Positions 2 through 37,009 of a stretch of DNA of 45,047 bases are shown one piece after another. The notes beneath the pieces are model-generated. The model made no database searches and was not told the DNA's origin. It saw only the letters and a list, made by a program, of their open reading frames with translations. Source of the stretch: Acidobacteriota bacterium (GTDB lineage: Bacteria; Acidobacteriota; Terriglobia; Acidiferrales; UBA7541); assembly GCA_003224175.1 (NCBI GenBank), contig QHYQ01000179.1, positions 1 to 45,047 on the forward strand, given 5' to 3'. Both the position numbers and the translations under genes were made by a program. Each line of letters opens with the position of its first letter. Position 1 is the first letter of the stretch.

Positions 2-1135
<1,134 letters not shown>

Positions 1136-1159
1136 GCCTTTCAGATTTCGCGCAAAGTT

Positions 1160-1191
1160 CGGCGCTCCACAAGCTTTTGCTCGGAGCGCCG
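1160..1191 (+). terminator. Hairpin terminator after rpoC
   Basis: Perfect 9-bp inverted repeat CGGCGCTCC / GGAGCGCCG (1160-1168 and 1183-1191) with a 14-base loop, 25 bases after the rpoC stop. No long T-run follows, so termination may be weak or Rho-assisted. Confidence 0.55.
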
Positions 1192-1287
1192 CACTCTGTC
1201 GTTCCCAGCCCCGCTGCGTGACACTAGGCTTGACAGTCACTGACACCCTTTGGCCTCCAGCCTCGGCTTAATTAGTAGGTAATATCC

Positions 1288-3837
1288 TTGGCCGAAGGAG
1301 TTGCGCCCGCCTCTGCGCGGGACATAGACTGTCACCTCGCACTTGGCCCCTCCTTTTCCGGAGAGGCCGAACTACAGAAGGGTTATGTCGACTACAACCA
1401 CCAACGCTCGGCGGCCGATGTCGATGCCGGTCTCTCCGTGAATCCATCTGCCGTTCCGCCGTCGGATCGGTTGACAGCCCGCGAAGGCAGGCTTTGGCTG
1501 CTTGCGGTCATCTTGCTTCTGTCTCTGGCTGTGGGATTGGCGCTAATTTCCTGGCAGCCAATCCATTTGCTGCCGTGGAGGCTGGATGCTCTTCCGGTCG
1601 GCCTGGTTTTGCTGGTCAGCCTATTTGGTGCATACGCCATTTCCCGATGGCGTGAAATTGCCCAATTGCGCACGCTCGTCCACGGTCTCTCGCATCAGCC
1701 CCAATCGCGCGCTGAGGGGCAAGTGGAGAAGCTCTTCGAGATGGTGCAGCGTTCCCAGCGCGGCTTTCGCGACTTGATTGACACCTTTGACGATGCCTTG
1801 CTCTCACTTTCGCTCGAGGGAGAGATCCTCGCCACCAATCGCAGCTTTGCGGACATGCTCGGCCGCCCATTTCACGAACTGGTGGGACACCGGCTCGATG
1901 AGTTCCTGGAGTTAGTCGATGGCGCCGGCTTCGCCTCACTGCAACGTGAATTGCTCTCCCTGCTCGAGCGGCGCCATCGATCCGGTGTCCTGCGCATCCG
2001 CCTGAAGCATGAAGCCGGCTCGAGATATTTCCAATGCACCACGCATGCGCTCGTCCACGAGGGCGCCCGGCGCGGTGTGTGCGTTCTCGCACGCGATATA
2101 ACCACGGAGCGCGAAAGCGAAGCCCGCTTCAAGGACCTGTTTGAGACCTTGCAGGAAGGCATCTATCTGGCCGATGCCGACGGACAATTGGAAGATGTCA
2201 ACCCGGCCCTGGTGCGCATGCTCGGCTATGAAAACCGGACGGAGCTGCTCGGGACTCCCCTCTCGGAATTTTTTGTCCAGCCCGAAGAGTGGGAGACAGA
2301 GCGGCGCCAGTTAGCTGAGTCTGATGTCGTGTATGGCCACGAGGCCACGCTGCGCCGCAGCGATGGCTCCGCACTCGCCGCTCTGCACGCCTCGGCTCTC
2401 ATTCGCGATACCGCAGGGCGCGTGCGCCGCCGTCAAGGAACGCTTGTGGATATCACTGAACGGCGCCAAATCGAGACGCGCCTGCGGCGGGAGCAGGAAT
2501 TTGCCCAGCGACTCGTGGAAAGCTTTCCCGATCTGGTTGTCGCTCTCGATCCGGAAGGTCGCTACACTTTTGTCAGCCCGCGTTCCAGAGAATTGCTGGG
2601 CCTTTCGCCAGAAGAGTTGATTGGGTCTTTGTTCAGCGAACGCGTCGAACCGCTCAGCTGCAAAGACGTGCAGGCATTCTTGGACAGCATTATCTCCGGA
2701 CAATGCTCCAACGGCAGCACCGAGTTTCTGGCCCGGCGGAGCGACGGTGAAACGCGGCTGTTCCGGGCGACCGCTAGCCCGCTCATGGATCTTTCCGGTC
2801 GCATCGCCGGCGTCATCGCCGCCGTGCGCGACACTACCGATTCGAAGCGCATGGAGCAGCAGTTGATTCAGAGCGAAAGGCTTGCAGCCATGGGTCAGAT
2901 GATTGCCGGCGTCGCCCATGAGCTGAACAACCCCCTCACGGCAGTCCTGGGGGTCACCGAACTTCTGCGCGATTCTACGGGCGACGATTCTGCTCGGCGG
3001 CAGCTCGAAATTGCCCACCGCCAGGCCCGCCGCGCCGCTCAGATCGTGCAAAGCCTCTTGACTTTTTCGCGTCCACCCCAGCCGCGCAAGATTTGCCTCA
3101 ATTTGAGCGAACTGATTCAGCGTAGCCTGCAGCTCCACGAACATTCTTTGCGCTCGAATAGCATCACGGTTGACTTTTCCGCCCCGCCCGATCTTCCTCT
3201 CATCCTGGGCGACGCCAGCCAACTCACTCAAGTTTTCCTGAACCTGATTGCTAACGCCGAGCAGGCCATTCGAGAGATTCGTGATCACGGGACCCTTTGC
3301 ATCCGCGTCAGCCGCGCCGCCGAGCGTGTGGTGGCCACGTTTCAAGATGATGGTGCGGGGATTCGGCGTGAGATACTGCCGAAGATTTTTGATCCCTTCT
3401 TCACCACTAAGCGGCCCGGCCGCGGCACGGGTCTGGGCTTAAGCATTTGCCTGGCCATTCTTCGCGAGCATAACGGCGAGATCGAAGCCCAGCCGATCTC
3501 GCAAGGCGGCTCGTTATTCACTACCTGGTTGCCCATCGCGCGGGGGACTGCCCTGTTCTTGGCCGAATCGCGGGACGGAGCGGTAGGCTCAAGTTCGAAG
3601 GAAATTTCAAAGGAAGCTGCAGCAGCGGTCACGAACGCCACGCCCGGCGGCAATCCCAAGCCCTTTTTCCTGTTCATGAGCGGTGAATTGGCGGCTGCGG
3701 CGGTCACCGAACAATTGGCTCAAGCCGGCGCTCAAACCATCCAGAAGCCTTTTCGCATCTCTGATTTGGTCACTATCCTGGCCGACGCCCTCGATAAGTC
3801 TTCCTCTGGCGCTCCACACGTTTCCCCCGTTAATTAG
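1288..3837 (+). CDS. Membrane PAS-PAS-PAS sensor histidine kinase with half a receiver domain
   Basis: A transmembrane sensor kinase of 849 residues. Two hydrophobic helices (about 70-89 and 100-119) are followed by three PAS domains (about 161-270, 281-395 and 405-525), a HisKA domain with phosphoacceptor His544 in VAHELNNPLTAVL, and an HATPase domain with N box NLIANAEQAI (about 652), DDGAGI (about 688) and GTGLGLS (about 714). The C-terminus, about 790-840, resembles only the second half of a receiver domain, from the MSGE strand-4 region to the conserved QKPF lysine. The acidic pocket and phosphoacceptor Asp half are absent, so it cannot be phosphorylated there. The reading frame begins at a TTG; an in-frame GTG at 1438 is an alternative start and would still keep both membrane helices. 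No partner response regulator is adjacent. Confidence 0.88.
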   Translation: MAEGVAPASARDIDCHLALGPSFSGEAELQKGYVDYNHQRSAADVDAGLSVNPSAVPPSDRLTAREGRLWLLAVILLLSLAVGLALISWQPIHLLPWRLDALPVGLVLLVSLFGAYAISRWREIAQLRTLVHGLSHQPQSRAEGQVEKLFEMVQRSQRGFRDLIDTFDDALLSLSLEGEILATNRSFADMLGRPFHELVGHRLDEFLELVDGAGFASLQRELLSLLERRHRSGVLRIRLKHEAGSRYFQCTTHALVHEGARRGVCVLARDITTERESEARFKDLFETLQEGIYLADADGQLEDVNPALVRMLGYENRTELLGTPLSEFFVQPEEWETERRQLAESDVVYGHEATLRRSDGSALAALHASALIRDTAGRVRRRQGTLVDITERRQIETRLRREQEFAQRLVESFPDLVVALDPEGRYTFVSPRSRELLGLSPEELIGSLFSERVEPLSCKDVQAFLDSIISGQCSNGSTEFLARRSDGETRLFRATASPLMDLSGRIAGVIAAVRDTTDSKRMEQQLIQSERLAAMGQMIAGVAHELNNPLTAVLGVTELLRDSTGDDSARRQLEIAHRQARRAAQIVQSLLTFSRPPQPRKICLNLSELIQRSLQLHEHSLRSNSITVDFSAPPDLPLILGDASQLTQVFLNLIANAEQAIREIRDHGTLCIRVSRAAERVVATFQDDGAGIRREILPKIFDPFFTTKRPGRGTGLGLSICLAILREHNGEIEAQPISQGGSLFTTWLPIARGTALFLAESRDGAVGSSSKEISKEAAAAVTNATPGGNPKPFFLFMSGELAAAAVTEQLAQAGAQTIQKPFRISDLVTILADALDKSSSGAPHVSPVN

Positions 3838-17939: not shown

Positions 17940-19855
17940 CTAGTCGCCGGCGGGTGCGGCGACCTCTTCCACCTGTTTGACTGCATCCTTCGCGCCGCCA
18001 TTCGCGATAGTAGCGAGGGCTGGGCCGGTGGCCGATTTGATTTGTTGAACGGAACCGATCTGCACCACGGCAGGCTGTGTCGTTTTTAGTACCATCTCTT
18101 CGTAGATGGCCCGGACCTTCGCCGCTTCTTCGAGAGCCTTACGGCGGCGTAGCTTATCCTCCTCTGCCGCGGTCATCGGAATATCGTGTTCTTTGGGTCG
18201 AACTCGAGCCGCGTCTTCGGCATCGATCGTCAGCGAGTGTTCGTAGTTTTCCAGGTCCACGTTGCGGCCCTTGGCGTAAATCTGATGTTTCCCGTGAGTG
18301 CGGTACCACTGCGCAACAGTCGCATTCTTGTACATGTTCTCGATGATCTTCCGCCAGCCGATTCCCGTATTGTACGCGCAGAAAGAGATTTCTCCCTGCT
18401 GCGTGGCGTACGGGATGATGCACATTTCCGTGCGGCGGAAGTCATAGTTGAAGAGGTCCTGGAACCACATCCCTGCGATGAACAAGAAATTCCAAGGGTC
18501 TTCTTCGCGACGCTTCTTGGTGTCTTCGAAAGTGCGATCAGGACCCGAATTTCCGTACTTCTTCACATGGTTCGGCGTCAAACCCCAGGACTTATCGAAC
18601 TTGCGCCAGAGATCAATGAGCGCCAGGCTGGGCGGCGCTTCGAACGGGCGATAATTCTTCAGCAGCGCAAGGCCCATCATCAGGTTGGAAAAATTCTTGC
18701 TCCGCGCCGCGTCCGTGATTTTCTTTATATCCTCCACTAAATGCGGCACATCGAGAAAACGCGGCACAGGAGCCCACTCTTTGGTGTGCTTGTTGATCAT
18801 CAGTGCGGTGCCGACGCCGCAGTTCGGATGGCAACCGCAGCTCACCGTTCCCCAATGCGATTCCGGACCGTGCGCCAAGTCGGCAAAGGCCGAAAAGGCA
18901 CTGATCAGGGAGATCGGGAACCAATCGCGCGTTGGTTCCACTCTTCCCACTTGGTTACTTACGTCCTTCGCCAGATGCGACAACGTATAGCGCTGTCTCA
19001 ACCGCCGTTCCGGTGTTATGTCTTCGTCGCGGCCGGTAAAGGAGACAGGCTGGAATGCCACGAACGAAATCTTCTTGGGGTTCTCCATTGCAAACTTCAC
19101 GACTGCCCCCACCTGATCGTTATTCACGTTGTTGACGATCGTAACCACCAGAATGATCTCGATGCCGGCCTCGTGCATGTTCTCGATGGCCCGCAGCTTC
19201 ACGTCGAACAAATTGCCGACTTGGCGGTGGCTATTGGCATCATTTCCAACGCCATCGAACTGAAGGTAGGCATAGCGCAAGCCCGCCTCGAATGCTTTCC
19301 GGCAAAACTCCTTGCTCTTGGCAAATTCGATTCCGTTGGTGGCCGCTTGCACGCTGTTGTAGCCGAGCTTTCGCGCATAGCGGATGGCGTCGACGAAATA
19401 CGGGTGCATGGTGGGCTCGCCGCCCGAAAACTGCACGGAGAGCTGGCGGCGCGGCTTAATTTTTACCGCGTTGTCCAGAACTTCCTGTATTTCGTCCCAA
19501 GTCAGTTCGTGAACATAACCGACCTGGTTTGCGTCCATAAAGCATGGATCACACATCATGTTGCAGCGATTGGTCAGATCGACCGTCAAGACCGCGCCCC
19601 GGCCATATCGAACCGTGCTCGACCCATGCTTATGTAGGCCCTCATCGTTATGTGCCGGAATATCGCGGCCGGGGAAGGCTTCGTTTTCTCCCAGGACTTA
19701 AGCAACGGTTTATCCGACCACTTCGGTGTAAACGAAGGATTCGGGTTGAATTTGTTGAAAAATTGCAGAGTATCGAAAGCCACGCCGGCGGTTTTGCTCA
19801 CGGCTAAATCAATCACTTTCCAGGCTCGCGAACTTGCGCCTACTTTCCTAGGCAT
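17940..19855 (-). pseudogene. Radical SAM enzyme, tetraether/membrane-spanning-lipid-synthase-like, frame-disrupted
   Basis: The 3' frame encodes a large radical SAM protein with the cluster motif LTNRCNMMCDPCF (CX3CX2C), FSGGEPT, ATNGIEFAKS and LQFDGVGN. A second Cys-rich segment SCGCHPNCGVG and MCIIPYATQQGEISFCAYN follow. Layout and residues recall MJ0619/Tes-type radical SAM enzymes that join lipid tails, and their bacterial relatives. Reading upstream in this frame gives FPGRDIPAHNDE and LHKHGSSTVRYGRGAV, clearly family sequence, but a TAA lies at 19698-19700. The N-terminus (MPRKVGASSRAWKV to SWEKTKP) is in a neighbouring frame, from an ATG at 19855 with GAGG upstream. The frames meet at about 19676-19680. 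A single base loss would suffice; a 3n+1 deletion removing part of the N-terminal domain is also possible. No good in-frame start exists between the stop and the cluster motif, so the enzyme is probably inactive unless this is a sequencing error. Confidence 0.75.
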
Positions 19856-36811: not shown

Positions 36812-37009
36812 GCTTGCTCCCTTCCGCAGGCCGTTCTGCACGGCTCCCCGACGAGCGGGGATACAGCCGCGTCGCTAAGCTCGCGGGATAGCCTTTAATA
36901 GTACGCGAATCCAACCAGCGTTTCCAAGCAGTAGATGCTTGCTCGCCTGTGAAAGTCGCAACGGCGATTTCGCTTGTTCCGTCAACCGAGCAAGTATACC
37001 GTCCGGAGC

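Follow-up and report, generated by a model that had tools for sequence, protein, structure and literature searches.

A 244-bp break in an acidobacterial Tes/Mss-like radical SAM gene that probably arose during assembly

A Tes/Mss-like radical SAM gene in the window, by which we mean the whole analysed stretch of 45,047 nucleotides (contig QHYQ01000179.1 of an Acidobacteriota MAG, G000), lacks exactly 244 bp that are present in both sister genomes, and sequence comparison indicates that this break is very probably an error of assembly or scaffolding rather than a mutation. The assembly would have joined two stretches of an intact gene at 19677/19676 and skipped 244 bases, leaving the halves in different frames; short-read scaffolding or local assembly is the putative source of the join. 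The organism itself most likely carries a full-length gene of about 718 codons, and the lesion is probably present in the sequence but not in the organism.

Structure of the break

The gene is read on the minus strand in two frames (Table 1). Frame A starts with ATG at 19855-19853 and reads MPRKVG...KSWEKTKP, and frame B reads FPGRDIPAHNDEG... with its stop at 17940. The homology moves from frame A to frame B between 19677 and 19676, in agreement with the initial annotation, which had two family frames meeting at about 19676-19680. The TAA at 19700-19698, which that annotation took as the end of the main frame, does exist, but it is the stop immediately upstream of frame B; frame A continues past the junction for 29 unrelated residues and ends at TGA 19588-19586. 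A tblastn search with the intact 718-aa protein of the closest relative (L012 1081-3234) aligned residues 1-61 with 19855-19673 and residues 142-718 with 19676-17943, at 97% identity each, and such identity on either side of the junction places the two-frame gene far beyond chance. The 3' part matches Pfam Radical_SAM (E 9e-21) and keeps the CX3CX2C radical SAM motif (C179/C183/C186) together with the C-terminal cysteines.

Table 1. Features of the broken gene (coordinates of the window) and of the two further clean deletions backed by both sister genomes
Feature	Position	Strand	Remarks
Broken Tes/Mss-like radical SAM gene	19855-17940	minus	readable in two frames
5' part kept (codons 1-59 and two bases of codon 60)	19677..19855	minus	97% identity to L012 residues 1-61
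3' part kept (reference codons 142-718; FPGRD... to TAG)	17940..19676	minus	97% protein identity to L012 (QHYS01000059.1) residues 142-718
Junction, frame change; 244 bp of both sister genomes absent	19676..19677	minus	0 bp overlap
Frame A continued out of frame as far as TGA	19586..19676	minus	translation as written would give a truncated product of 89 aa
Longest ATG/GTG/TTG ORF in frame B, 549 aa	17940..19589	minus	without the whole N-terminal region
252-bp clean deletion, 839-aa molybdopterin oxidoreductase gene	L132 (G000:C3) 7045/7046		intact in G001 and G002
254-bp clean deletion, MacB/FtsX-type permease gene	L170 (G000:C293) 11372/11373		intact in G001 and G002

The 244 bp are absent from the window relative to G002 (QHYS01000059.1, 'gp2 AA82'; 92% DNA identity), and the same 244 bp are carried by G001 (QHYR01000281.1, 'gp2 AA83'). 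The length equals 3 × 81 + 1 and covers codons 61-141 together with the third base of codon 60. Of the two possibilities left by the initial annotation, a single missing base or a 3n+1 deletion, the latter thus describes the sequence, and a single-base assembly error is ruled out. Alignment to full-length homologues, which had been suggested as a check, gave 81 missing residues across the junction. There are no N bases at the join. The missing 244 bp were not found elsewhere in the MAG assembly, which rules out a misplaced piece. A deletion mediated by overlapping sequence was also rejected, given the 0-bp overlap and the position of a nearby imperfect GAGAAGA repeat off the breakpoints.

The lost codons contain the N-terminal cysteine segment whose absence had been anticipated, namely C72-x2-C75 and C118-x2-H121. 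Across 81 aligned full-length homologues and the reference, conservation reaches 99-100% at C72, C75, C118 and H121 and at many further residues of 61-141, and the four are invariant in a set of 26 sequences. In the archaeal enzyme GDGT-MAS (MJ0619), a rubredoxin-like iron is held by C9X2C12X20C33X2H36 (PMC9433317). The CX2C...CX2H pattern of the intact relatives matches this ligand pattern and lies likewise before the radical SAM domain, suggesting that the gap takes out all four putative ligands of an iron site, which is absent from the window copy.

Clean deletions in the MAG and copies in relatives

G000 is a draft assembly of 624 contigs. About 138 kb of it were compared with G002 and about 72 kb with G001, and 65 kb of G002 were compared with G001, a deletion being called clean when its edges abut within 3 bp. 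Three clean deletions were backed by both sisters (244, 252, and 254 bp), all in the MAG of the window, and these were the sole clean deletions in the roughly 72 kb aligned to G001, all of them on the G000 side. The 252-bp deletion cuts a gene with the Pfam domains MoCoBD_1, MoCoBD_2, and Ald_Xan_dh_C, in which the join makes a TAG stop. The overlaps at the three joins are 0, 0, and 1 bp, as with random joins. The missing pieces are different sequences with a GC content equal to that of their flanks, which rules out base composition as the cause. The three sizes span no more than 10 bp (p ~0.001 with a log-uniform model applied post hoc); over all ten clean indels, the clustering is not unusual (p ~0.4).

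The background clean indels range from 62 to 331 bp and may be real. The comparison of G002 with G001 gave a single clean deletion, of 62 bp in G002, at L158 (G002:C69) 15371 in a GH57/DUF3536 gene that is intact in G000 and G001. Further clean deletions were seen relative to G002 only: 184 bp at L149 (G000:C20) 4197, 93 bp at 37005-37006 of the window, and 163 bp at L175 4407.

The gene is widespread. The search covered 61 genomes, the MAG of the window plus 60 relatives, and 60 of them gave a match; in a phylum sample of 198 genomes (at least 95% complete), 106 gave a strong match, among them all listed members of the same class. Split copies among about 110 loci compared were limited to the window and L112, which is the G022 record and has a gap of 40 N at its break. 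Among MAGs of the same family, the split copies of G003, G033, and G022 (L150, L151, and L153) contain N gaps of 14, 2, and 40, respectively, so that recurrent natural loss is ruled out as the explanation of the breaks in relatives; no N-free break was found in other copies of the window gene's clade among about 100 homologues. The N gaps in L150, L151, and L153 are shorter than the sequence missing there, i.e., they are mis-sized scaffold gaps.

A second intact copy, the possibility of which had been raised in the initial annotation, was searched for in the MAG assembly and not found; the other matches were remote radical SAM proteins with 35% and 22% identity. A second acidobacterial Tes-like paralogue (~40% identical, e.g., L154 3118-1643) belongs to the same superfamily branch and was found alongside the main copy in G037, and it was not found in the MAG of the window. 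In L154 this paralogue contains SLCPEC...CPHHG as well as RCPEQCGLC, the two N-terminal motifs, whereas the clade of the window gene is devoid of the [4Fe4S] motif. The ~40% paralogue of G002 (L152, G002:C208) is itself read in two frames, with no N.

Explanations for the break and their consequences

The case for faulty assembly comes mainly from the recurrence: three unrelated conserved genes are cut by nearly equal lengths in one 624-contig draft, a pattern that is hard to obtain by mutation and easy to obtain by faulty joining. Counting against it are the small number of deletions tested (three) and a join free of N, in contrast to the N-containing gaps of G003, G022, and G033. The sister MAGs were tied through their sample names to a grassland study based on paired reads of 250 bp, with assembly by IDBA-UD or by MEGAHIT plus the IDBA-UD scaffolder and with correction of scaffolding errors (PMC6784897), and the MAG of the window possibly comes from the same study. 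For IDBA-UD, local assembly errors are a suspected prominent problem (PMC7111523).

The main competing explanation, which we consider unlikely, is a real and very recent deletion, fixed in the strain or present in part of the population, that inactivated the sole Tes/Mss-like gene. The clean join free of N, the absence of the missing DNA from the assembly, and the lack of a second copy there are all what such a deletion would leave. Every relative whose contig covers the gene in full and without gaps, however, has it intact, and the MAG shows lesions of this type and size in other conserved genes as well. Short repeats usually mediate true deletions, and the join here has no overlap. The remaining gene also shows no relaxation of selection. 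Since the split from G002, polarised by G001, the window branch has accumulated 40 synonymous and 2 amino-acid changes in codons 142-718, both replacements being conservative (I284V and R649K), compared to 53 synonymous and 6 amino-acid changes on the G002 branch (dN 0.012 and dS 0.41 between the window and G002). No further stops or frameshifts, and hence no pseudogene decay, were seen in the remaining gene, and as a rough bound, at most 2-5% of the window branch could have been free of constraint. The deletion, if real, would therefore be very young. Given that two further conserved genes of this MAG have clean ~250-bp gaps and that the remainder of the gene shows no decay, the earlier suggestion of a real loss altering the lipids of the strain is not borne out. 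It appears quite improbable that a 244-bp deletion has only recently deprived a natural acidobacterial population of the rubredoxin-like site and the reading frame of an otherwise class-wide lipid-coupling enzyme.

Two further possibilities would leave a working protein in spite of the break. Translation might restart at TTG 19589, which overlaps the TGA of frame A and opens the 549-aa frame with the whole radical SAM motif, to give a functional shortened enzyme consisting of the radical SAM core without the rubredoxin-like region. The same TTG is a leucine codon in the relatives, so that a start there would be fortuitous, and it has no clear ribosome site ahead of it; moreover, the four lost putative metal ligands are 99-100% conserved in about 80 homologues, and a homologue with such an architecture was not found. 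We regard the shortened enzyme as highly improbable. Programmed frameshifting, in favour of which frame B takes over from frame A at the join, had been named in the initial annotation as a refuting case, in the form of an intact homologue reading KTKPFPGRD across the junction. This form is refuted, since intact homologues have the 81 residues at this position and use one frame. Frameshifting is excluded as a rescue because these 81 codons, invariant residues included, are missing from the window, and we give this reading almost no weight.

The distinction between an assembly error and a true deletion matters for the use of the genome. Taken at face value, the annotation would describe a soil acidobacterium without the Tes/Mss-like enzyme, a candidate source of the branched-tetraether paleothermometer lipids. 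Were the deletion true, the strain would be a natural knockout for membrane-spanning lipids, devoid of those made by the Tes/Mss-like enzyme. The assembly error that we favour carries a different message, in that a single MAG shows the same clean gap of ~250 bp in three conserved genes within ~100 kb. Such recurrence implies that the gene-loss calls and truncated proteins of this MAG need checking against reads, and perhaps the same caution applies to gene-loss calls from other assemblies made in the same way.

Assignment of the intact protein

The intact protein belongs to the radical SAM family by Pfam. Its best sequence match in the PDB is the archaeal Tes/GDGT-MAS (MJ0619, PDB 7TOL/7TOM; E 1e-61, residues 100-602), which is also the closest by fold (Foldseek E 3e-22) when an AlphaFold2 model of the intact protein is used as the query; this model is of medium confidence (pTM 0.66) and plays a supporting role only. 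The CX3CX2C motif is common to archaeal Tes and the intact relatives, in which C179/C183/C186 are invariant. On the other hand, the clade of the window gene is longer at both ends than archaeal Tes, and the whole clade lacks the N-terminal auxiliary [4Fe4S] ligands of MJ0619 (C73/C77/C80). Conserved histidines (H150, H156, and H158) were observed in L012 1081-3234 and its homologues in the region where archaeal Tes has this N-terminal [4Fe4S] motif.

Frame B of the window scored 296 bits against the Tes family profile NF045702 (NCBIfam), and the intact relatives scored 324.5 and 322.8 bits, all below the curated cut-off of 450 bits. The initial annotation of a broken Tes-like radical SAM gene holds in this sense, but the label "Tes" is too narrow: with a score of 324 against 450 bits and one Tes cluster motif absent, we named the protein Tes/Mss-like. 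It is probably, by homology, a radical SAM enzyme coupling the ends of lipid tails. The intact proteins form a divergent Tes/Mss-like family found throughout Terriglobia and already known in kind. Tes homologues occur in Acidobacteria and have been proposed as brGDGT enzymes (PMC8941075). Mss and Ger are a proposed bacterial enzyme pair; Mss (Sahonero-Canavesi et al. 2022) is described as a radical SAM protein of Tes-like type with a proposed role in coupling iso-C15 chains, and members of Acidobacteria subdivisions 1, 3, 4, and 6 are reported to contain iso-diabolic acid (PMC13274423). The likeness of bacterial Mss, which has a verified representative in Thermotoga, to the window family, as Tes-like radical SAM proteins, is drawn from this published description.

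The MAG also has a candidate Ger/PlsA-like (glycerol ester reductase) locus at L168 (G000:C452) 292-3566. Two PF01869 (BcrAD_BadFG) domains share a frame there, and DUF2229 is encoded in a second frame that overlaps it, a pattern for which split genes or another frame error are candidate explanations.
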